Both the position numbers and the translations under genes were made by a program. A stretch of DNA of 46,575 bases, from NCBI GenBank assembly GCA_947626365.1, contig CANQRW010000022.1, positions 1-46,575 on the forward strand, in the 5' to 3' direction. Positions 6,213-19,921 of the stretch are shown here, piece by piece. The DNA is from an uncultured Lachnospiraceae bacterium. GTDB taxonomy: Bacteria > Bacillota > Clostridia > Lachnospirales > Lachnospiraceae. The stretch's first letter is position 1. Each line of letters begins with the position of its first letter. The notes beneath the pieces are model-generated. The model made no database searches. It saw only the letters and a program-made list of their open reading frames with translations, and was not told where the DNA came from.

Positions 6213-6498
6213 CAATCGCAAGATCATGCTCGGCGAGAGAGGCGTTCCGGCTCCCACCAACGTAGCGGAAGAAATCGCTCCCCTTCTGAGCGAGACCGAC
6301 CAGGTAGTCACCGCCTTCATTAACGATGTGGTAACTCCCAACTCCTCTCCCATCAATCCGCCCCAGCCTGACGGAGCCAGCGAGGTATATGATCTGCTGA
6401 ACAGGGTGGTTGAGGAAGTATGCTACCGCCAGAGAACCGCCGAAGACGCAGCCGCCTACTTCTTCGATGAAGCCAACAAGATCATGGCGACCAAATAA
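6213..6498 (+). pseudogene. Truncated copy of the sugar-binding lipoprotein gene (3' end only)
   Basis: The frame beginning at about 6213 and ending at 6498 encodes about 90 residues. They match the last 90 residues of the intact binding protein (7603-8994) at all but about six positions, starting at LGERGVPAP and ending NKIMATK. There is no ribosome site before the first ATG and no signal peptide, so it is a remnant. Most DNA differences are at third codon positions, so the copy evolved under protein-level selection before it was truncated. That points to an older functional paralogue or a homologous import, not a very recent duplication. The break lies in AT-rich sequence upstream of the AraC promoter. 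Confidence 0.85.
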
Positions 6499-7602: not shown

Positions 7603-8994
7603 ATGAAAAGAAAAATCGCACTGTTACTTGCCGGCGTTCTCGCGGTATCCGCGCTGACCGCCTGCGGCGGAGGTTCTTCCTCTTCTTCTGATGCAGGCGC
7701 TGCTGCCGACACTACTGCCGCTGCTGCTGATGCAGGCGCTGCTGCCGACACCACTGCCGCTGCTGCTGACGCAGGTTCCGCGGAAGGCGGAAAGAACCTG
7801 GTCTGCTACTGGTGGGGCAATCAGGTTCGTAACGAGAGAACCGCTGCTGCTCTGGAACTGTATGAGCAGAACAACCCCGGCGTATCCATCGACCCGCAGT
7901 TCGCTGACTGGGGCGGTTACTGGGATAAGCTGGCTACCCTGGCAGCCGGCAACTCCATGCCCGACGTCCTTCAGATGGACTACATGTATGTAGACCAGTA
8001 CGCTAAGAGCGGCCTTCTGGTTGACCTGACGCCCTACATCGAGAACGGCACCCTGGACTGCTCTCAGATTTCTGAGAACACCATGGCTTCCGGCACCATC
8101 GACGGCGGCGTATACGCCATCTGCGCAGGAATCAACTCCCCGGCGCTGATCTACGACAAGACCCTGACCGACAGCATCGGCCTGACCATCAAGGACAACA
8201 TGACCATGGATGAGTTCTTTGAGTACTCCCGTGAGATCAATGAGAAAACCGGCGTGAAGACCGATATCAGCTATGGTACGGTTAACTCCTACAGCGAGTA
8301 CTTCATGCGTTCCTTCGACATCGTTCCCTTCGGCGACAAGAAGATGAACGGAACTGCCGAGGACTGGATTCCCTTCTTCGCGCAGTACGTAACCGGCCTG
8401 GACGAGGGCTGGCTCATCGACCCCAGCATCTTTGCTGAGATCTCCATCGGCGCTATCGAGCAGATGCCCATGGTTTACGGCTCCTCTCCCGAGACCCGTT
8501 CCTGGTGCGCTCTGGCCAACTCCAACCAGCTGGCAGCCGCTATCAACGCTGCTCCCGAAGGCATGGAGCTTGGAATCACCACATGGCCCGCATATGATCC
8601 TGTGAAGTCCGATTACTTAAAGTCCAGCCAGTTCTTCTCCATCGGCGCAGGTTCCGCCAACGAGGAAGAGGCTGTTAAGGTCCTGAACTTCCTGATCAAC
8701 GACATCGATGCCAACAAGATCCTTCTTGGTGAGAGAGGCGTTCCGGCTCCCGCTAATGTAGCAGAAGCCATCGCTCCCCTTCTGAGCGAGACCGACCAGG
8801 AAGTTACCGCTTTCATCAACGACGTAGTTACCCCCAACTGTTCCCCGATCAACCCGCCGCAGCCCGATGGCGCCAGCGAGGTTTACGATCTGCTGAACCG
8901 TGTAGTTGAGGAAGTCTGCTACCGTCAGAGAACCGCTGAGGACGCAGCTGCCTACTTCTTCGAGGAAGCCAACAAGATCATGGCCACCAAGTAA
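7603..8994 (+). CDS. Sugar ABC transporter substrate-binding lipoprotein (CUT1 type)
   Basis: This 463-residue family-1 extracellular solute-binding protein starts with a signal peptide ending in the lipobox LTAC (Cys21), so it is lipid-anchored outside the membrane. A low-complexity Ala/Asp/Thr linker (about 30-58) contains a 13-residue tandem repeat. The mature part begins KNLVCYWWGNQ and has the family features WGGYWDKLATLAAGNSMPDV and NFLINDIDANKILLGERGVP. It delivers sugars to the permeases encoded next. The ribosome site is AAGGAGG. A truncated paralogue lies at 6213-6498. A hairpin follows the stop, which probably keeps its expression higher than that of the permeases. Confidence 0.93.
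   Translation: MKRKIALLLAGVLAVSALTACGGGSSSSSDAGAAADTTAAAADAGAAADTTAAAADAGSAEGGKNLVCYWWGNQVRNERTAAALELYEQNNPGVSIDPQFADWGGYWDKLATLAAGNSMPDVLQMDYMYVDQYAKSGLLVDLTPYIENGTLDCSQISENTMASGTIDGGVYAICAGINSPALIYDKTLTDSIGLTIKDNMTMDEFFEYSREINEKTGVKTDISYGTVNSYSEYFMRSFDIVPFGDKKMNGTAEDWIPFFAQYVTGLDEGWLIDPSIFAEISIGAIEQMPMVYGSSPETRSWCALANSNQLAAAINAAPEGMELGITTWPAYDPVKSDYLKSSQFFSIGAGSANEEEAVKVLNFLINDIDANKILLGERGVPAPANVAEAIAPLLSETDQEVTAFINDVVTPNCSPINPPQPDGASEVYDLLNRVVEEVCYRQRTAEDAAAYFFEEANKIMATK
7690..7767 (+). repeat. 39-bp in-frame tandem repeat in the lipoprotein linker
   Basis: Two copies (7690-7728, 7729-7767), differing by a single base, encode the 13-residue unit DAGAAADTTAAAA in the spacer between lipid anchor and binding domain. 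Copy number could vary between strains and alter tether length. Confidence 0.85.
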
Positions 8995-10925: not shown

Positions 10926-10976
10926 TGGTATCGGAACAAACAACAGTTATTCATAGCAAAAACAAGAAGCAAATAC

Positions 10977-11100
10977 AAAAAACGCGTCACTGGCGCGTTT
11001 TTTGTATACTGACGTAATACAAAAAAGAGCGTCTCTGGCGCGTTTTTTGTATACTGACGTAATACAAAAAAGAGCGTCTCTGGCGCTCTTTTCGTATACG
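10977..11100 (+). repeat. Three tandem copies of the hairpin-plus-tail repeat at a convergent junction
   Basis: Copy A (10977-11018) and copy B (11021-11063) are a hairpin plus tail ATACTGACGTAAT. Copy C (11066-11100) has a perfect GAGCG...CGCTC hairpin but a decayed tail. All run in the + direction. The hairpins carry A-runs on one side and T-runs on the other, so they can terminate both the sugar operon and the leftward antiporter operon that ends at 11121. The 195 bp between the genes hold nothing else. Confidence 0.85.
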
Positions 11101-11120: not shown

Positions 11121-13463
11121 TTATCTCCCGAAGAACATGAACAGCAGGTATCCCAGCGTTATGCACAGGCCGATGCAGAACAGCATAAGGCCGAAGGAGA
11201 AACTGGTCTCCACCAGCCGGAAGATATGCTTAATCTGTTCCTCCCCGCGGACCAGACGAAGGGAGGCAGACTCCCTCACTGGAACCATACCCTCTTCCTT
11301 CCCGGAAGCGCCGGCTGCCGCCATATGCGACGCTCTTCTTCTCTCCGGCGACAATCTTTCTTTCAGCCCCGCCGCTCCATCGAGCACAGCTCCCAGAACA
11401 TGGGCCGCCAGATCGGTATCATGAGCCTCTCTCGCAGGTTTAATCTGACTGTGGGTGGTCAGCCTGGCCAGCCGGACAACTCCGTCAGTGGTGCTGTCCA
11501 AAAAGCGGGAAAATACCGTCGATATCACAAGCGTCACATGAAAGACTACACTGAGAAGCTGTTCCAGCATAGCGCAGGCCGTTCCGCAGATCGCCGGCAG
11601 GGCCACCTGCAGCACCGGACGGTACACCAGATTCTCCAGATCCAGCCACTGGGGCCAGCGGTTCACATAGTGCCTGCCCTCTCCCTCTTTTTCCATCAGA
11701 AGACCTCGGATCACCACCGCATACAGGAAGATTCCGATGCCGATACTGATCAGTCCGCCCTTCAGGTTGGCAAAGGAGAAATACGCCACCTCATGGGCGT
11801 GGCCCTCCATATGGAAGAAGCTTTCGCCCAGACGGGCGATATTGTCCATGGTAATGTGAGGCGTCAGGCCCAGAATGGGACACAGTGCCGCGGCTGCGGC
11901 CAGGGCTGTTCCGCTGGCGGCGTTCATGTACACCTTCCCGCCCTTTTCAGCATCCTTAACAACAGCTCCACCCGCGACGGCTCCGCTCGCACCGGCTCCG
12001 CGGCTTCGGACAGCACTGCTGCACAGAGCGTCGAACTCCGCCTGTCTGGTAGGGTGTTTATCTACAAACAGAGCCACAAACAGCTTCAGCATATAAGACA
12101 CGGTCATGCCGCCTGTGATGAGGAATACCCACTCGGCCGCGTGCCAGAACAGGGGGCCGCCCACAAATTCCATGTATTCCACGATGCTCTCGTGGATCAG
12201 AGTCTTGCTGATATATCCGTTCCACAATGGGATGCCTCCGATTCCCAGGGCCCCCATGAGAAACGCGAACATGAGCACCGGCTTGTTCCGGCCGAAGCCG
12301 CGGATGTCATCCAGCTCCAGCTGATGCAGATTCATATACACCGCGCCGGCACAGAGGAACAGAACCAGTTTAAACAGGGAATGGTTCATCATGTGGAGAA
12401 ACGCTCCCCGCACCGCCAGGCTGTTGCCCTCCCCCACGCTTCGGAGAAGGCAGGCCATGCCGATTCCCGTCAGGATAAATCCAATCTGGGACACGGAGGA
12501 ACAGGCCAGGGTCCGCTTCAGGTTGGTGGAAAACACCGCCAGAAGAGCTCCCAGGAACATGGTAATAAGGCCCAATACCGCGATGAGAAGTCCCCAGGCA
12601 TGGTCGGAACCGAACATGACGCAGGACACCACAATAATGCCAAAGACGCCGGTCTTAGTCAGAATGCCAGACAGCAGGGCGCTGGCCGGAGCCGGAGCCT
12701 CGGGATGAGCCTTGGGAAGCCAGATATGCAGCGGGAAACACCCTGCCTTGGCTCCGAAGCCAAAGAGCATCAGCGCGGCCGCCGTGTAAAGCTGAGCCTT
12801 CGCCGTCGGGAAAAAGCTCCCGGACAGTCCCGTCATATTTCCGCCCCACGGCATTTCCGAAACCTTAGCCGCGACCCAGACAGAGGTCGGTCCGTCCGCG
12901 CCGCCGATGACAGAAACCGCCGCGCCGGCATCTCCGCCTATGACAGAGACCGCCGCGCCCTCCGCTGCCGCCGCGGACAGGGCGTTTCCTGCCCCCAGGG
13001 GCCATTTTCCTGCCATCACCGCCTCCGCCAGAGGGCCGATGGCGTCCATCTCCAGGGTTCCCAGCAGGTCATAGAGAAGAAACAGTCCCATCAGCATGAC
13101 CATGCCGCCGATGACCGCCACCGCCAGATAGGTCTCCGCCGCCCGCAGGCTGGGCTTCCGCTCGTCGAACGCCACCCACACGTAGGAGGTAAAGGACATG
13201 ATCTCAAAGAAGATAAAAGTGGTAAACAGATCCGCCGACCAGAACACCCCTACCGTAGCGAAGAAGGTGGCCCAGAAGAACAGATAGTACCGCATTTTAT
13301 TCTTATAGTGGGACATATATTCTCTGGAGAAGATTCCGCTGACCGTCCACATCAGTATGGCAATACAGGTATAGACCAGCCGGAACCCGTCCAGCCGGAG
13401 GTGCATGCCCATTCCGCAGAATCCCGGTATCACCAGATCAAACAGCTTCCATCCCTGGCTCAT
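11121..13463 (-). CDS. ND5/MrpA-like antiporter subunit with inserted decarboxylase-type motif
   Basis: This 780-residue membrane protein is the last gene of the antiporter operon. It keeps the proton-path residues of NuoL/MrpA-type subunits: Glu87 in FIFFEIMSF, Lys239 in GAKAGCFPLHIWLPKAHPEA and Lys270 in ILTKTGVF. A loop at about 163-205, absent from the sister subunits, holds two tandem copies of AAVSVIGG, the second continuing ADGPTSVWVAAK. That string is the signature of Na+-translocating decarboxylase beta subunits. A second Ala/Gly-rich insertion lies at about 475-515. The C-terminal 200 residues include a lateral-helix-like segment and a final membrane helix. It overlaps the preceding gene by 4 bp. 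Confidence 0.87.
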   Translation of the reverse strand: MSQGWKLFDLVIPGFCGMGMHLRLDGFRLVYTCIAILMWTVSGIFSREYMSHYKNKMRYYLFFWATFFATVGVFWSADLFTTFIFFEIMSFTSYVWVAFDERKPSLRAAETYLAVAVIGGMVMLMGLFLLYDLLGTLEMDAIGPLAEAVMAGKWPLGAGNALSAAAAEGAAVSVIGGDAGAAVSVIGGADGPTSVWVAAKVSEMPWGGNMTGLSGSFFPTAKAQLYTAAALMLFGFGAKAGCFPLHIWLPKAHPEAPAPASALLSGILTKTGVFGIIVVSCVMFGSDHAWGLLIAVLGLITMFLGALLAVFSTNLKRTLACSSVSQIGFILTGIGMACLLRSVGEGNSLAVRGAFLHMMNHSLFKLVLFLCAGAVYMNLHQLELDDIRGFGRNKPVLMFAFLMGALGIGGIPLWNGYISKTLIHESIVEYMEFVGGPLFWHAAEWVFLITGGMTVSYMLKLFVALFVDKHPTRQAEFDALCSSAVRSRGAGASGAVAGGAVVKDAEKGGKVYMNAASGTALAAAAALCPILGLTPHITMDNIARLGESFFHMEGHAHEVAYFSFANLKGGLISIGIGIFLYAVVIRGLLMEKEGEGRHYVNRWPQWLDLENLVYRPVLQVALPAICGTACAMLEQLLSVVFHVTLVISTVFSRFLDSTTDGVVRLARLTTHSQIKPAREAHDTDLAAHVLGAVLDGAAGLKERLSPERRRASHMAAAGASGKEEGMVPVRESASLRLVRGEEQIKHIFRLVETSFSFGLMLFCIGLCITLGYLLFMFFGR
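12864..12960 (-). other. Inserted IGGADGPT peptide within the ND5-like subunit
   Basis: Residues about 168-200 of the protein encoded at 11121-13463 contain a 33-bp tandem duplication giving VSVIGG twice, then VSVIGGADGPTSVWVAAK. Oxaloacetate, methylmalonyl-CoA and glutaconyl-CoA decarboxylase beta subunits share IGGADGPT at their Na+/H+-binding region. Here it sits in a loop between two membrane segments of an unrelated fold. Confidence 0.7.
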
Positions 13464-15127
13464 CCCGCCTCACCTCCAATCATCTCTAATATTTTAAGAA
13501 GGGGCTCCGGATGGAGACCGATGACAAATATCATGATCACAAAAATCACCAGGGGCACCAGCATGAGCCAGCTGGGATCAGAAGCCTCCCGCTCCTCTCC
13601 CTCTGTCCGAACTGAGGTCCCTGAGGACTGCGCCGCGCCTGCCGAAGCGGCGTTTCCGGAAGAAGAAACCGCGCCTGCCGAAACGGTGCTCCCGGAGGAA
13701 GAAACCGCTCCTGCCGAAACGGCGCTCCCGGAGGACAGGGCCGCCCCCACCGCCGGGAAGAAGGCCCGAATCGCCACCGTCAGCATATAGATTCCGGTCA
13801 TCAGCGCCGAATAAAGGATTACTCCCACGCCCACATAAGGGATGAACCCGCCGGGGATTCCGGCAGCCACCGCGTCGCCTCCCCAGGACAAAGCCGCCTG
13901 GATCAGGTTCCATTTGCTGATAAATCCGGCAAACAGGGGGATTCCCATGAGGGACAGTCCCGACATCAAAAAGCAGGTGAAGGTCACCGGCATTTTCCGG
14001 CCCAGGCCGTCCAGCTGATGAATGTAGGTCTTTTCTGTCTGATGCATGATGGCGCCGGCACAGAAGAAAGCGCATATCTTCATAAACGCGTGGGCCACCA
14101 GATGAGTCAGGGCTCCTATGAGTCCCAGAGGCGTCATGATCGAAGCGCCGAAAAGAATATAGGACAGATTGCTGACCGTGGAATAAGCCAGCCGCCGTTT
14201 CAGATGGATCTCCTTCACCGCCATGGTAGAGCCGAAGGTAATGGTGACGAGGGCCGCCGTCATGGCCGCCCACTGGGCCCAGGTTCCCCGCAGGAAACTG
14301 GTTCCGTAGATGAAATAGGTAAACCGAAGCACCGCGAAGGCGCCGGATTTTACCACCGCCACCGCGTGAAGCAGGGCCGTCACCGGCGTAGGCGCCACAG
14401 ACGCCTTGGGCAGCCAGTCATGGAAGGGGAAAATCGCCGCTTTCACGCCGAAGCCGAAGAACGCCAGCACATACACCAGAAGAAGGAGATTTTTGTGCTG
14501 CCCTGCCAGCTCCGGATTCAGCATGCCGCCGGCCACGAATTCCGTGGTGCCGATGGCGGAATAGGACAGGACGAACACCAACCCGATAAAGGCGAAAGCC
14601 GCGCCGCCGATGGAATAATACAGATACTGGCGGCTGGCTCTGGCCGCCTCCCTGGTCATGGGATACAGCACCAGAGGCAGCGTGACAAAGGTCAGCATCT
14701 CATAGAACAGATACATGGTTATGAGATTGCCGGCCAGGGCCACCCCCAGAGTGACGCCGTAGGTCATGGTGTAGAAGGCGAAAAACATGGGCCTTCTGCT
14801 CTCATTCTTCATATATTCAAAGGAGTACAGGGTCGCCAGGGGCCACAGAAACGACACCAAACCGGCGAACACACTGCCCATCAAATCCAGTTTAAACATC
14901 ACGGTCAGCTGGCCGTACAGCCGAAACAGCACCAGATTGCCGCTGCGGCCGCCGGTGGAGATAATCAGCGCCGCCACCATCAGGCTGTTGACCAGCACCA
15001 GGCACTCCGTCACGATCTCCATCGTCCGCTCATGATGTCCGCTCCTGATAGGGTTATTGAATATCAAAAGCAGAAATCCGAAGATGATGGGAAGCAGCAC
15101 CACTGCCGTCATCAATGAATCATACAT
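13460..15127 (-). CDS. ND4/MrpD-like antiporter subunit
   Basis: This 555-residue polytopic membrane protein has Glu143 (LFYEMLTF), Lys229 (GVKAAIFPFHDWLPKAS) and Lys260 (VVKSGAF), the conserved charges of the half-channels in NuoM/MrpD-type proteins. The segment HAFMKICAFFCAGAI carries the usual His/Lys of the later channel. Residues about 465-505, between the last two membrane segments, form a Ser/Ala/Gly repeat with a 12-residue period that close relatives would not need. The ribosome site GACGGAGGAAGAG precedes the ATG. A 155-bp gap with tandem repeats separates it from the previous gene. Confidence 0.9.
   Translation of the reverse strand: MYDSLMTAVVLLPIIFGFLLLIFNNPIRSGHHERTMEIVTECLVLVNSLMVAALIISTGGRSGNLVLFRLYGQLTVMFKLDLMGSVFAGLVSFLWPLATLYSFEYMKNESRRPMFFAFYTMTYGVTLGVALAGNLITMYLFYEMLTFVTLPLVLYPMTREAARASRQYLYYSIGGAAFAFIGLVFVLSYSAIGTTEFVAGGMLNPELAGQHKNLLLLVYVLAFFGFGVKAAIFPFHDWLPKASVAPTPVTALLHAVAVVKSGAFAVLRFTYFIYGTSFLRGTWAQWAAMTAALVTITFGSTMAVKEIHLKRRLAYSTVSNLSYILFGASIMTPLGLIGALTHLVAHAFMKICAFFCAGAIMHQTEKTYIHQLDGLGRKMPVTFTCFLMSGLSLMGIPLFAGFISKWNLIQAALSWGGDAVAAGIPGGFIPYVGVGVILYSALMTGIYMLTVAIRAFFPAVGAALSSGSAVSAGAVSSSGSTVSAGAVSSSGNAASAGAAQSSGTSVRTEGEEREASDPSWLMLVPLVIFVIMIFVIGLHPEPLLKILEMIGGEAG
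13613..13735 (-). repeat. 36-bp in-frame tandem repeat in the ND4-like subunit
   Basis: About 3.4 copies encode SGSAVSAGAVSS-like units (residues about 466-505) in a hydrophilic loop before the last membrane segment. The period is a multiple of three, so length changes keep the frame. Confidence 0.8.
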
Positions 15128-15168: not shown

Positions 15169-15290
15169 CCGCCTGCCCGGCAGACAGACAAGTCTCACAC
15201 GCCGCCGCTCAGCAGGCAAATTCGCAATACTGCCACTCAGCGGGCAGGCGAGTTTCTCGCAAGCCGCCTGCTCTTCTGCCCGCTACAGGA
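15169..15290. repeat. Imperfect 31-33-bp tandem repeat between two antiporter genes
   Basis: Units begin CCGCC(T/G)GC at 15169, 15202, 15233 (CCACTCAGC) and 15264. On the transcribed strand they can form nested hairpins, for example GCGAG/CTCGC inside GCAGGCG/CGCCTGC. It fills the only long gap in a tightly packed operon and overlaps the end of the upstream gene by a few codons. Confidence 0.5.
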
Positions 15291-16764
15291 CCATCTCCGC
15301 GACGCTCCGGGCAAACGCGATCAGCGGCCCCGGGAAACATCCGAGAAGCAGGGACGCGATCCCCAGGATCCCGATGGGAACCAGCATGGCCGGTTCCGGC
15401 TCTTTTCCCTCCAGCCCTCTCTCCTTAATCTCCTGCCCGTCAAAGTCCTGCCCGGGGAAATATCCCTGGATCATAATGGGAAGCAGATAACCGGCCGTAA
15501 GAAGGGCGCTGATCAGCAGGATCACCGGCCCTATAAAGCCCAGGGCTCCCGTACCGGAAGCCAGGGAACCGGTGGCCAGATACCATTTGCTGACAAAGCC
15601 GCTGGCGGGAGGAATTCCGATCAGGGCCAGAGCCGCCAGCGTGTAGAAGGCCAGTGCCTTGGGCATGATTCTGCCCAGACCCCGCAGCTGCTCGATCCTG
15701 GTCCAGCCGGTCCTTACGATCACGGCGCCGGCGAAAAGGAACAGAGCATCCTTAATCACGGAGTGGAACACCACATGACAGAGGGCCCCCACGAAAGCCG
15801 TTGGTTCCAGGAGACTCAGGCCGAACAGCACGTAAGACACCTGGCTCACTGTCGAGTAGGCAAACCGTTTCTTCATCACCTTTTCCCGGTAGGCCAGCAT
15901 GGAACCCATAAATACCGTGAGAAGAGCCAGAACCATCCAGGCGTACTGGACCCAGGTCCCGCGGATCATAACCGGTCCTACGATAAAATAGACCACACGG
16001 ATAATGGCGATGACGCCGGCCTTGGTGATGACGCCGGACAGCACAGCGCTGGCCGGGGCCGGGGCCACCGGATGGGCCGTAGGCAGCCAGCCGTGAAGGG
16101 GGAACATGCCGGCCTTGGTGCCGAAACCCACGATCATGGCAAAGACGGCAAACAGCAGGAGCCCTTCCTTCCCGGCAATCATGTCCGGGGTCACCACACC
16201 CCCGGCCGTAAACTGCAGATTTCCGCAGACATTGGCCAGGAAGAAGATTCCGAACAGCGCCAGGAAAGCGCCTGCCACCGAATAGAACAGATATTTAAGA
16301 CCCGCATGGATAGCCTCCTTCGTCAGCTCATGGAGAACCAGCGGCAGGGAGGTCAGGGTCATCATCTCGTAGAACACATACATGGTGATCAGATCCGCCG
16401 AGAAATCAAGGCCTGCCAGGACGCCCACCACGATCAGGTAGAAGCCGTAAAACCGCTGCTCATCATGCTCATGCTTCATATAAGAAGTGGAATGGATTCC
16501 TGCCAGCAGCCACATCACCGATGTGAGGACCGCAAACAGGCTCCCCACCTTATCGATTTTCAGACCCAGGGTTATGGTGTCCGTCAGCTTCCAGAGCGTA
16601 ACGCTTCCGCCGCCCATCACGGCCAGGATCACCAGCACCGCTTCCGCCGCCAGCACCGCCGTAAAGCAGCCGGTCAGGACACCTCGATTTTCCTTCAGAT
16701 TTTTTAAGGCAAGAACCAGAACGCCTGCCAGAATCGGCACAAACACCGCCAAAAGCATTAACAT
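15283..16764 (-). CDS. ND4/MrpD-like antiporter subunit
   Basis: This 493-residue membrane protein has about 14 hydrophobic segments. Conserved channel residues are Glu133 (VFYEMMTL), Lys217 (GTKAGMFPLHGWLPTAHPVA) and Lys248 (VITKAGV), with His/Lys in VFHSVIKDALFLFAGAV. Length matches MrpD/MbhH-type subunits. It lies 12 bp after the preceding ND2/ND4-like gene. The ATG is preceded by AGGAGGGAG. It probably provides one of the proton or Na+ half-channels of the complex. Confidence 0.92.
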   Translation of the reverse strand: MLMLLAVFVPILAGVLVLALKNLKENRGVLTGCFTAVLAAEAVLVILAVMGGGSVTLWKLTDTITLGLKIDKVGSLFAVLTSVMWLLAGIHSTSYMKHEHDEQRFYGFYLIVVGVLAGLDFSADLITMYVFYEMMTLTSLPLVLHELTKEAIHAGLKYLFYSVAGAFLALFGIFFLANVCGNLQFTAGGVVTPDMIAGKEGLLLFAVFAMIVGFGTKAGMFPLHGWLPTAHPVAPAPASAVLSGVITKAGVIAIIRVVYFIVGPVMIRGTWVQYAWMVLALLTVFMGSMLAYREKVMKKRFAYSTVSQVSYVLFGLSLLEPTAFVGALCHVVFHSVIKDALFLFAGAVIVRTGWTRIEQLRGLGRIMPKALAFYTLAALALIGIPPASGFVSKWYLATGSLASGTGALGFIGPVILLISALLTAGYLLPIMIQGYFPGQDFDGQEIKERGLEGKEPEPAMLVPIGILGIASLLLGCFPGPLIAFARSVAEMVL

Positions 16765-16776
16765 ACGTTCTCCCTC

Positions 16777-18264
16777 CTAACTAAACATGATAAGTCCCTG
16801 ACCAATGGCGCGCACGATGGGCTGTGAGAACAGGCCCAGCACCAGGTTCAGCAGGATAAAACAAACGACGGCCAGACGAAGATTCCAGGAATCCCTGTGA
16901 ACCTCGTCCACTTTCCGTTTCTCCGGCCGGTACAGGCTGATGACCAGCCGCAGGAAATACACGGCGTTCAGCGTAGTGCTGATGGCCAGAGCGATCAGCG
17001 TGGGAAGCAGCTTCCCTGTATTTTCAAACGCCGAAGTGGCAAACAACAGCTTGGAGATAAATCCGGACAGCATGGGGAAACCTACCATGGACATGGCCCC
17101 CACCGTAAAGCCGATGGCAGCCAGAGGATTCCGGTAGCCGGCCCCGCGAAGGCTCAGATAATCCCGCTCTCCTCCGGAAGCCTCGTAAAGTCCCACGGCG
17201 CTGATAAACAGCAGGGCCTTGGTGGCTCCGTGGGAGAAGATATGGAAGATGGCCGCCGTGGTTCCCGCCTGGGTACCCAGGCCGATTCCCATGTAGATAT
17301 AGCCGATCTGGGCCACGGAGGAATAGGCGATCATCCGGCCTGTATCCTTCTCCTGAATGGCGTGAATGGAACCCATCATCATTCCGGCGATGCCGAACCA
17401 GTACAGCACGTCCAGAGTGTAGCTTTCCATCAGATGTTCCGGAGACATGACACGGTACAGGATCTTGATCAGCAGGAAAATGTATCCCTTGGACACCAGG
17501 CCGGACAGCACCGCGCTGGCCGCGGGCGTGGCATAGGCGTAGGTATCCGGTATCCAGTAATGGAAGGGATAGAGGCCGCTTTTGATGGCAAGGCCTACGC
17601 TGATCACCGCCAGGATCACCAGCATGGGAATCACGTAGGCGTCCGTCGCCGCCAGCTGAGCCACCGCCTCCTTGGCGGGGATCATCAGCAGCTGGCCGGT
17701 CACGTCATAGAGAAGGCTTAAGCCGATCAGGAACAGGCCGGAGCCCAGGGAACTCATGACCATATACCGGATAGCCGCGGACAGGCTTCTGCCCCACTGC
17801 CGGATCATGATCAGGCCGCAGCCGGCGATGGTATTGATCTCCACAAACACGTAAGCCGTGAACAGGTCGTTGGTGTAGACCAGGGCCAGCAGGGAACTGA
17901 GCATCAGGTCAATCATGATGTAGAACAGATTCAGCTTGCTGCCTTCCACGTCCTTTTCCGTGTGGTCCAGGCCGCCCATGACAGACAGCAGCATGACCAC
18001 GCCGAACATTAACGCCGTCAGGCCCTCCAGTACGCCGGCACGGATCTCATTGCCCCAGGGGGCCGGAAAATGTCCCATCATGTAGGTGTAGCTCTCTCCG
18101 GTCTTCCAGGTGTAGGCAAGAACCGCCGCTGACATGCAGGTGGTCACGCCGATGGCGAAGATACTTAAGTTTCTGGCCTTTTTCCCGGATATCACCGCCG
18201 AGACGATACCGGAAAACATGGCGATGATAATGGAAAAGAAAGGAAAATTCTGCACAAAACTCAT
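16777..18264 (-). CDS. ND2/MrpD-like antiporter subunit
   Basis: This 495-residue polytopic protein is the first of four ND-type subunits. Channel residues are Glu142 (YVFVEINTIAG), Lys228 (LAIKSGLYPFHYWIPDTYAYA) and Lys259 (LVSKGYIF), with FHIFSHGATKALLF for the later half-channel. Its start overlaps the stop of the MrpC-like gene by 4 bp (ATGA), so translation is coupled. By position it corresponds to MbhH/MrpD in the archaeal mbh and bacterial mrp orders. Confidence 0.92.
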   Translation of the reverse strand: MSFVQNFPFFSIIIAMFSGIVSAVISGKKARNLSIFAIGVTTCMSAAVLAYTWKTGESYTYMMGHFPAPWGNEIRAGVLEGLTALMFGVVMLLSVMGGLDHTEKDVEGSKLNLFYIMIDLMLSSLLALVYTNDLFTAYVFVEINTIAGCGLIMIRQWGRSLSAAIRYMVMSSLGSGLFLIGLSLLYDVTGQLLMIPAKEAVAQLAATDAYVIPMLVILAVISVGLAIKSGLYPFHYWIPDTYAYATPAASAVLSGLVSKGYIFLLIKILYRVMSPEHLMESYTLDVLYWFGIAGMMMGSIHAIQEKDTGRMIAYSSVAQIGYIYMGIGLGTQAGTTAAIFHIFSHGATKALLFISAVGLYEASGGERDYLSLRGAGYRNPLAAIGFTVGAMSMVGFPMLSGFISKLLFATSAFENTGKLLPTLIALAISTTLNAVYFLRLVISLYRPEKRKVDEVHRDSWNLRLAVVCFILLNLVLGLFSQPIVRAIGQGLIMFS

Positions 18265-18639: not shown

Positions 18640-19674
18640 TCACATGCCTCCTTTCCGGAACAGAGTAAAGAACGCGTACATGGTGCAGGCCACCACCAGG
18701 CCCACACATATATTCAGCGGCAGAATCAGGCCGCTGCTTAAGATCGCCCCCGGCGTCCCCAGAGGAATCCCGCTTTCCAGATGGTTGGCCCCGGTAAAGA
18801 AGGAATAGCTCTTGGCCAGACAGTAGAAGGTCAAAGCGCAGAGGGTCATGCGCCGGTACACCTTCTCCGTGAAAAACCGGTGGGTCTTCTTAAATCCAAA
18901 TGCGTTCAGATACAGGATCAGGCCGGAGCCCAGCACTGCGCCGCCGGAGAAGCCTCCGCCCGGCGACAGGTGGCCGTTGAGCACAATGTAAATTCCGAAC
19001 ACCAGGATCATAGGCACCAGGATCTTGGCCGCCGTCTGAAGGACCACATCATTTCTGGGCTCGAAGACTGTATCATCCTCTCCCAGGTTCTCCCCGTTCC
19101 GCCCCTTAACCGCAATGTCCACCCGCAGAAGCACCAGCACACAGCAGGATGCGATAAAAAGCACGCAGGACTCGCCGAAGGTATCGAAGGCACGGTAATC
19201 CAGGATCATGCCGGTGACGAAGTTGACGGCTCCCGTCTCCTGGACGCCGCTCTCGATGTACCTCTGAGGCACCTCATTGTTGGCGGGATTTCCCGCCTCG
19301 CCAAACATGGGCAGGGCCGTCACCGTCCACAGAAGCACCGCGATAATGGCGGCGCACAGGATCACGGCCATGACCCGGTACAATTTCTCAAAAGACCAGA
19401 GGCCGCTGGCCTCAAGATTCCGGTAAATCTGCTCCTCCGTCGGTTTCTGACGGCCTTCCCAGACGGTCTCCTCTGACATACCCTGGGGCCACATCAGATT
19501 CTGAGAAGCCTGGGCTTCACTCTGCTGTATCCTCCATGCCTCAGGAACCTGCTCCTGCTCCGCAGGCGGAGCCTTGATCTCCGTAATCTCCTGCAGCAGA
19601 TCCACATCGCCGTCATACCACCGCTTCAGTTTGCGGGCCCGGCTGTTTTCATAGTTATCCCTGACTCTGCTCAT
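18640..19674 (-). CDS. MbhE-MbhF (MrpB-type) fusion with long hydrophilic N-terminus
   Basis: This 344-residue protein has three parts. The first (about 1-100) is hydrophilic and Glu/Gln-rich, of unknown role. The second (about 103-185) is an MbhE-like domain with FGEAGNPANNEVPQRYIESG and TGMILDYRAFDTFGES. The third (about 215-340) is an MrpB/MnhB domain with ILVPMILVFGIYIVLNGHLSPGGGFSGG. In archaeal mbh operons MbhE and MbhF are separate; in mrp operons the first is the end of MrpA. The ATG at 19674 has GAGGAGG upstream. Its start overlaps the DUF4040 gene by 20 bp. Confidence 0.85.
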   Translation of the reverse strand: MSRVRDNYENSRARKLKRWYDGDVDLLQEITEIKAPPAEQEQVPEAWRIQQSEAQASQNLMWPQGMSEETVWEGRQKPTEEQIYRNLEASGLWSFEKLYRVMAVILCAAIIAVLLWTVTALPMFGEAGNPANNEVPQRYIESGVQETGAVNFVTGMILDYRAFDTFGESCVLFIASCCVLVLLRVDIAVKGRNGENLGEDDTVFEPRNDVVLQTAAKILVPMILVFGIYIVLNGHLSPGGGFSGGAVLGSGLILYLNAFGFKKTHRFFTEKVYRRMTLCALTFYCLAKSYSFFTGANHLESGIPLGTPGAILSSGLILPLNICVGLVVACTMYAFFTLFRKGGM

Positions 19675-19921
19675 CCTCGTCCTCCTCATGAATGGCCCGG
19701 ATTTTCCTCAGGGTCACAAAGAAAAGAATACTGGTAACTCCGGCGCCTACGGCCGCCTCGGTGATGGCCAGATCCGGGGACTGCAGAAATACCCAGATGA
19801 CGCACATGATCAGGCTGTAGGACATGAAAATGACAATAGACGCCAGAAGATCCCGAACCACCGCCACACATACGGCGCAGACGATCAGAGATATCAGAAG
19901 AATGATCTCAAACAGTTTCAT
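19655..19921 (-). CDS. MbhD-like / DUF4040 antiporter subunit
   Basis: This 88-residue protein has three hydrophobic segments and the conserved stretch SPDLAITEAAVGAGVTSILFF. The same stretch occurs in MbhD and in the C-terminal part of MrpA. It ends in an acidic tail. It overlaps the end of mrpG by 14 bp and the fusion gene by 20 bp, a tightly coupled arrangement. Confidence 0.88.
   Translation of the reverse strand: MKLFEIILLISLIVCAVCVAVVRDLLASIVIFMSYSLIMCVIWVFLQSPDLAITEAAVGAGVTSILFFVTLRKIRAIHEEDEDEQSQG

Follow-up and report, generated by a model that had tools for sequence, protein, structure and literature searches.

Locus of the tagged pump subunit

The stretch of DNA analyzed here, referred to as the window, comprises positions 1 to 46,575 of contig CANQRW010000022.1 of an uncultured Lachnospiraceae bacterium (assembly GCA_947626365.1). 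It carries an Mrp/MBH-type gene cluster with a gene for an ND5-like pump subunit, three sister ND genes and an MnhB/MbhE gene, all on the minus strand (Table 1). The ND5-like protein contains the Proton_antipo_M domain of the ND-type subunits of Mrp antiporters and complex I, and its closest solved relatives were MBH subunit H (6cfw_H) and formate hydrogenlyase subunit 3 (7z0s_C). Between two blocks that aligned to 6cfw_H, the window protein had 84 residues (143-226) where 6cfw_H has 13 (200-212). An alignment with its three sisters showed that some 70 loop residues are unique to the window protein; a preliminary description made from the DNA sequence had likewise noted a loop that the sisters lack. 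The loop holds the octapeptide IGGADGPT, a signature of OadB, the beta subunit of Na+-translocating decarboxylases, within a longer peptide that we refer to as the tag and that is the subject of this study. The same description had reported a 33-bp tandem duplication at this place. We found that GAAVSVIGG is indeed encoded twice, but that IGGADGPT occurs only once, since the first unit reads IGGDA; among seven tagged ND5 orthologues the duplication was present in the window protein only.

Table 1. Features of the tagged gene and of its cluster (TM, transmembrane helix).
Feature	Coordinates	Strand	Evidence
ND5/MrpA/Hyf-like proton-pump subunit, 780 aa, tag carrier	11121..13463	minus	Proton_antipo_M PF00361, E=2.2e-51
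Extended Ala/Gly/Ser-rich loop, residues about 140-226, between helices matching TM6 and TM7	12786..13046	minus	Alignment with sisters and with 6cfw_H
Tag, residues 182-200, AVSVIGGADGPTSVWVAAK	12864..12920	minus	Tag profile E=3.8e-14 in own genome; OadB profile on loop E=1.7e-6
Second 33-bp unit, residues 180-190, part of intact tag	12894..12926	minus	27/33 bases identical to first unit
First 33-bp unit, residues 169-179, GAAVSVIGGDA, incomplete upstream copy	12927..12959	minus	27/33 bases identical to second unit
Sister ND subunit without tag	13460..15127	minus	PF00361 E=9.2e-57; alignment
Sister ND subunit without tag	15283..16764	minus	PF00361 E=8.6e-56; alignment
Sister ND subunit without tag	16777..18264	minus	PF00361 E=1.9e-48; alignment
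MnhB/MbhE-like subunit, same Mrp-type cluster	18640..19689	minus	PF04039 E=8.6e-27; PF20501 E=1.9e-9

The loop resembles the ion-site segment of OadB

We built an OadB profile from 60 fetched OadB genes and found that it matched the loop with an E-value of 1.7e-6 and the whole window protein with an E-value of 6.9e-5, while the best of 2000 shuffled loops reached only 0.16. The motif pattern matched twice in the window against no match in 100 shuffles, and the reversed pattern, used as a control, gave 0 matches in every genus, family and phylum genome searched. An ND5-like orthologue from another genome (G010) matched the Pfam family OAD_beta with an E-value of 3.8e-4 in a genome search. These results confirm that the IGGADGPT insertion in the ND5-like protein is real and more than a chance resemblance. 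The likeness was limited to one part of OadB: the ion-site segment is present in the window loop, other conserved segments such as MHAMGPNVAG are not shared as judged by counts of that motif, which never exceeded those of OadB genes in 200 genomes, and the tag hosts that were scanned belonged to other families or to none. Tag proteins stayed below the OAD_beta gathering score of 31.6 bits, with 17-28 bits over 22-46 residues or no match; the sole tested protein above it was a microprotein from G135 (32.1 bits over 47 positions).

Occurrence of the motif among genomes

The core was searched as a DNA pattern in 26 genomes of the genus, 200 Lachnospiraceae genomes representing 199 genera (the family set) and 299 genomes of the phylum. 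Matches were found in 24, 181 and 131 of these, respectively, and most of those that we read were OadB. OadB and tag were separated by scripted sequence patterns; a simple Shine-Dalgarno score decided the starts, and helices were called from hydropathy. At least 39 of the 200 family genomes carried a tag, 33 with the exact core and 6 with variants only; this hand count is a lower bound. Fetching began with the genomes that had several matches, and the host counts given below are samples, not a census, of the matches listed.

IGGADGPT outnumbered OadB genes (E<=1e-30) in 25 of the 200 family genomes, two of which (G031 and G048) are incomplete assemblies with unread matches. As a control we used another fixed OadB motif, MHAMGPNVAG, which outnumbered OadB genes in none of the 200. 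In this respect the ion-site segment is therefore unlike the remainder of OadB that was tested.

The tag is dispersed among unrelated proteins

In the genome from which the window comes, the 8-residue core occurred three times. Apart from the window protein, the carriers were a true OadB (L002) and an unrelated protein of 221 aa (L003), which has the core at its N-terminus. A search of the same genome with a tag profile added an altered copy in a further protein (L195). Across the genomes, blastp with a masked tag sorted 63 distinct non-OadB proteins carrying the exact core into 30 clusters. Three of these, each of a single protein (L124; L127 with its duplicate L134; L128), had only the core in common with the others and were dropped as likely chance matches, leaving 60 proteins in 27 clusters that share a peptide of about 16 residues. 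By our reading these represent about 15 unrelated kinds of host, some of the clusters (short proteins, HAAS and XRE remnants) being probably related. The peptide was thus found both as free small genes and inside other proteins, the two forms for which the preliminary description had proposed a search.

The hosts comprised membrane microproteins, HAAS and XRE membrane proteins, M56 sensors, PgsA, ABC permeases, lipoproteins and two soluble families. Pfam scans of 10 hosts returned HAAS, HTH_3, CDP-OH_P_transf, Peptidase_M56, ABC_sub_bind, DUF6449 and, below cut-off, a TM198-like family, so named hosts including an XRE regulator with two helices, an ABC substrate-binding lipoprotein and DUF6449 permeases. 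L195 had no Pfam family and L228 only a sub-threshold match to OAD_beta. Inspection of the neighbors by eye placed a PadR-like gene beside two HAAS genes and a BlaI-like gene before one M56 gene. In PgsA the insertion amounted to 34 residues (27-60) where 7drj_A has 12 (45-56) between aligned blocks. Judged from sequence alone, the carriers also included two-helix microproteins of about 80 aa as well as anchored and secreted proteins. Outside the family, microproteins of about 45-60 aa consisted of the tag, one helix and, in most of them, a basic tail (L165, L167, L169, L172 and L178). Several microproteins and the HAAS and XRE hosts ended in tag, helix and basic tail. Elsewhere the tag was located in loops, in mid-protein, at N-termini, behind a lipobox Cys or in soluble proteins. 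A profile search of 12 chosen genomes added L251 (membrane-anchored, rhodanese-like by eye), L261 (lipoprotein-like) and others.

Some loci had features of their own. In L187 and L229 a degenerate partial tag (VIGGADGPA... and IIGGTDSATSI..., respectively) stood upstream of the intact one, as in the window, and in all three cases the intact copy was the C-terminal one. At L235 (G135) two similar two-helix microproteins were encoded about 2.6 kb apart, one with an intact and the other with an altered tag (IGGAEGPASIIISSK). The soluble family with an N-terminal tag was also present on contigs called viral (L129, L130, L131 and L132), and neither L129 nor L003 matched a PHROGs family. Both soluble tagged families were encoded on one contig (C37) of the window's own genome (L237:13190-13852 and L238:3854-4852). 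A common locus for these two was rejected, as about 9 kb lie between the tags and nothing seen ties the genes together.

We also examined possible routes and contexts of spread. A link to the OAD operon was rejected because ten microprotein loci, five inside and five outside the family, had differing neighbors, with the exception of L165 and L167, which had neighbors in common. Spread by phages was rejected since the two 91% matches in a phage collection (MT836091 and MT837082, the strongest of ten) were contigs ending in ordinary OadB genes, and spread by plasmids since 7 of 10 plasmid matches were annotated as OadB and 3 were unannotated.

The tag has a consensus of its own

The tags followed the consensus [AS]-[VI]-S-[VI]-I-G-G-A-D-G-P-T-S-[VI]-[FW]-[VIL]-A-G-K, a module of about 16 residues. 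Within the family, V was found at position -1 in 23 of 44 tags but in none of 85 OadB sequences, V at +9 again in 23/44 against 0/85, and V or I at +11 in 33/44 against 2/85. When the 7 ND5 orthologues were left out, the tag counts were 16, 17 and 26 out of 37, respectively. At two other positions tags and OadB varied alike with lineage. T at +12 was present in 0/44 tags inside the family and in 5 of the only 6 available outside it (OadB, 3/85 and 24/40), and G at -2 in 3/44 tags inside and 4 of the same 6 outside (OadB, 5/85 and 35/40). Either the tags arose from OadB more than once, or both keep meeting the same constraint.

We examined 12 variant tags without the exact core: ten from the profile searches, one decayed ND5 orthologue and one neighbor of L038. 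The degenerate upstream copies (window, L187 and L229) were excluded, and the 12 profile-searched genomes had been chosen partly for extra matches, which favors variants. The variants retained Pro in 12 cases, the preceding Gly in 11, Ser and Thr in 10 each, Phe/Trp in 11 and the Gly of AGK in 11, while Asp was kept in only 7, the other 5 having E, N, C, Y or K in its place.

Tag and OadB did not always go together. In G141 the core read IGAADGPT in OadB and IGGADGPT in the PgsA tag. G054, a genome 93% complete, carried tags and had no OadB at 1e-30. Full-length OadB was not found in five of the genus genomes tested (G010, G013, G014, G015 and G016; 80-93% complete), two of which carry the ND5 tag. 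Among 12 family genomes more than 90% complete and without OadB, only G054 had a tag match at E<=1e-6; with a tag rate of about one in five, this count is no evidence either way.

History and selection of the ND5 tag

A protein search of the 26 genus genomes yielded 10 close ND5-like relatives, the window protein included, of which 7 had an intact tag, 1 a decayed one (L205) and 2 none (L202 and L206). The other genomes gave 10 more distant ND5-like proteins with a short loop and no trace of the tag, 2 fragments without the loop, and no match in 4. The simplest account would be a single insertion in a sub-clade followed by loss. In this comparison of loops, which the preliminary description had suggested for dating the insertion, the absence in the two close relatives may be either loss or primitive. 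Since two close orthologues lack the tag and one has a decayed copy, the tag in the window protein is an optional add-on to the pump.

In the ND5-like proteins that have it, the peptide is under purifying selection. Over the 8 core codons, the 7 tagged orthologues had a pN of 0 and a pS of 0.30 (nonsynonymous and synonymous differences, respectively), and the pN/pS ratio was 0.08 for the 16-codon tag, 0.39 for the loop flanks and 0.20 for the rest of the protein, all from pooled pairwise counts that are non-independent and come from one host family.

The DNA behind the peptide was much less uniform. Third-position identity at shared residues was 0.33 between tag and OadB, 0.35 between tags and 0.41 between OadB genes, and five same-genome tag pairs had only 0.08-0.46 identical codons. 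This low codon identity means that the tags are not recent copies of each other, and they are probably not recent copies of OadB either. Identical codons were slightly more frequent between a tag and the OadB of its own genome (0.386) than between a tag and the OadB of other genomes (0.319; 39 pairs, Wilcoxon p=0.0035), a small excess that could be explained by shared codon usage. The suggestion that the insertion is recently mobile DNA was thus not borne out.

Membrane side and predicted structure

In 29 of 29 proteins, Lys and Arg were more concentrated beyond the adjacent helix than on the side of the tag, which by this charge count places the tag outside the membrane; the 29 were chosen for having a helix beside the tag and comprised 28 of the 63 exact-core proteins and L251. 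For the window protein, topology pointed to the same side. ND-type subunits have their N-termini outside. The window protein is shorter than a sister by about 58 N-terminal residues, which we read as TM1 and TM2. Because the N-termini lie outside and TM1 and TM2 are missing, the TM6-TM7 loop should be outside as well. OadB itself is listed in PMC8396727 as N-out with 10 helices and 2 re-entrant helices.

Structure predictions gave no consistent picture of the tag. A model of the L189 microprotein (2 sequences) had a mean pLDDT (predicted local distance difference test) of 63, falling to about 50 at the tag, and was composed of a helix, a break at the core and a second helix. The ND5 model (4 sequences) had a mean pLDDT of 46, about 30 at the tag, and showed short strands at 172-175, 182-185 and 193-195. 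The two models disagree at the tag and neither is trustworthy there. The beta-branched residues of the tag suggest an extended form, a point that these low-pLDDT models do not settle.

A putative recognition peptide, probably derived from OadB

The dispersal of the tag, its own consensus, the purifying selection in the ND5 set and the outward position by charge count are observed. Similarity and lineage tracking together point to descent of the tag from OadB. We consider it about an even chance (probability roughly 0.5) that the tag is a portable, mostly surface-displayed recognition peptide of this descent, with a putative partner and function. A module of about 16 residues would have left the re-entrant ion-site segment of OadB and settled in the loops and termini of many unrelated proteins, where selection would keep the peptide and not the DNA. 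Most carriers would show the tag just outside the membrane, some microproteins being hardly more than the tag and one or two helices. A common extracytoplasmic partner, such as a binding protein, a protease or a modifying enzyme, would dock on the tag and act on whichever protein displays it. We prefer recognition to ion binding because Asp is expendable and the hosts are diverse; over neutral capture, the selection result and the behavior of the control motif speak for it. If this reading is true, small unrelated proteins obtain partial scores as sodium-pump subunits because their tag module came from OadB. A broader claim, that these proteins and dedicated microproteins bear a previously undescribed class of portable, surface-displayed tag from a pump ion-site segment, family-wide and beyond, with one common extracytoplasmic reader, we hold somewhat short of even odds.

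Were the recognition reading right, a peptide of about 16 residues would mark unrelated envelope proteins across a large bacterial family, which implies an unknown surface reader engaged in binding, processing or signaling. It would also exemplify a short functional segment that leaves its parent protein and spreads as a module. The question lends itself to direct testing, since the microproteins amount to naturally minimal tag carriers.

Several observations weigh against this reading. As a measure of descent, OAD_beta had no match at E<=0.01 for 5 of the 10 tagged hosts. The profile match to decarboxylase beta subunits on which the preliminary description had staked its case held for the OadB-gene profile on the loop, but a Pfam hmmscan of the whole window protein gave no OAD_beta match even at E<=5. 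Fifteen of the 60 tag proteins, in two clusters (L003-type and L010-type), had neither a membrane helix nor a signal peptide beside the tag and are apparently soluble, so that a role confined to the outside would leave them unexplained. The tag is dispensable in ND5-like proteins, and the selection estimate is subject to the limits given with it. The exact-core search picks intact copies, while profile matches include altered ones. The tags follow the OadB of their own lineage, a likeness that an independent partner would not require, and of all the facts this lineage tracking is the chief one left unexplained by the preferred reading alone. No partner of the tag has been identified, and no co-occurrence search of genomes was run. 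The two soluble clusters and lineage tracking keep rival explanations alive.

The rival that survives best, although we judge it unlikely, is that this piece of OadB is copied again and again into other genes, where it survives chiefly in outside loops and tails, and then decays without having a function. Such captured or selfish fragments would be expected to be patchy among ND5 orthologues, to include the altered copies found by profile and to leave partial copies upstream of an intact one, as in the window, L187 and L229. Local capture would also give tags like the OadB of their own lineage, and the slightly higher codon identity with it fits. That codon excess is small, however, with shared codon usage as a possible cause, and the other fixed OadB motif was never in excess. 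In addition, the tag consensus departs from OadB at three positions, and in the ND5 set purifying selection is stronger on the tag than on its flanks or on the pump.

Less likely still is mimicry, in which the tag would bind something that binds this segment of OadB, either to act as a decoy against an antagonist, such as a bacteriocin that targets OadB, or to regulate the pump. The parallel shifts of T at +12 and G at -2 inside and outside the family are in line with this, and tiny membrane proteins serving as a display would suit a decoy. On the other hand, only 6 tags stand behind the outside-family half of that parallel, and within the family tags and OadB differ systematically. Moreover, G054 is tagged without detectable OadB, and the two cores differ in G141.

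We regard as very improbable that the tag retains the OadB ion site and gives its hosts, cation pumps and membrane regulators, a Na+-responsive loop. Transport or signaling proteins are among the hosts (ND5-like, HAAS, XRE and M56), and Asp was present in all exact-core tags, though these were selected for it. The Asp of IGGADGPT is presumably the Na+-binding residue in OadB. Na+ binding by the tags is unlikely because this residue was replaced in 5 of 12 variants, in which Pro was always kept and Ser in 10. Furthermore, the site in OadB probably requires a surrounding fold that the tags do not have, and PgsA, lipoproteins and soluble hosts fit the idea poorly. As most host clusters are not ion pumps, the special link between a Na+ site and a Na+ pump that the preliminary description had remarked on was not upheld.

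Finally, the notion that an unrelated low-complexity Ala/Gly loop merely happens to look like the signature can be set aside with near certainty and was rejected, for although the tag flanks are Ala/Gly/Ser-rich and vary freely and Pfam reported no OAD_beta in the window protein, shuffled loops never approached the real score, the ND5 orthologues keep the tag and not the flanks (contrary to the gradual, unrelated loop anticipated as the refuting case), and the peptide itself turns up again in unrelated hosts.

Other repeats in the window

The neighboring ND subunit has a Ser/Ala/Gly linker, SAGAVSSSG, that is encoded by 2.9 copies of a 36-bp repeat (13633-13735); this linker and the tag loop are both low-complexity inserts within one gene cluster. 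Directly 3' of the tagged gene, about three 45-bp tandem copies (10972-11099) separate it from ABC transporter genes on the opposite strand. A 90-aa open reading frame (6226-6498) is a slightly altered repeat of the C-terminal end of a solute-binding lipoprotein (7603-8994) and resembles a truncated duplicate. In that solute-binding protein, a 39-bp tandem repeat at 7688-7775 encodes an Ala/Asp/Thr stretch after the lipobox region.

Comparison with known systems

No Pfam, NCBIfam or PHROGs model covered the tag in the proteins scanned, and five tag proteins searched against PHROGs had no match at E<=0.01. We found no open-licence full-text paper that names the motif core or that joins a decarboxylase beta subunit with small membrane proteins in Lachnospiraceae.

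The tag shares with OadB (PF03977 and TIGR01109; structures 6iva and 6iww) the 16 or so residues around IGGADGPT and, in part, the lineage residues at -2 and +12. It differs from OadB in that its hosts are without the remainder of the protein, OAD_beta spanning 22-47 residues where it matches, and in that tags favor V or I at -1, +9 and +11 and can lose the Asp. Rickettsia palindromic elements likewise place one short peptide inside many unrelated proteins. These and similar in-frame mobile fragments are recognized by conserved DNA and hairpins. The tag copies did not show such similarity at the DNA level; their codons are scrambled while the peptide is conserved, and given this a conserved hairpin is unlikely.

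The LPXTG, PEP-CTERM and GlyGly-CTERM tags resemble the present one as short motifs beside a membrane helix and basic residues in unrelated exported proteins. One microprotein, L167, passed the cut-off of the NCBIfam model LPXTG_anchor (18.5 against 15.9 bits, E=0.0024), but the match covered residues 19-46, the helix and the basic tail, and not the tag core (6-13). C-terminal sorting tags have motif, helix and basic tail at the C-terminus, whereas the present tag is also found in N-termini, mid-protein loops and soluble proteins. The window protein itself is a member of the ND-type subunits of Mrp antiporters, MBH and formate hydrogenlyase, and it differs from 6cfw_H in its long loop and from its three sisters in the tag that this loop carries.

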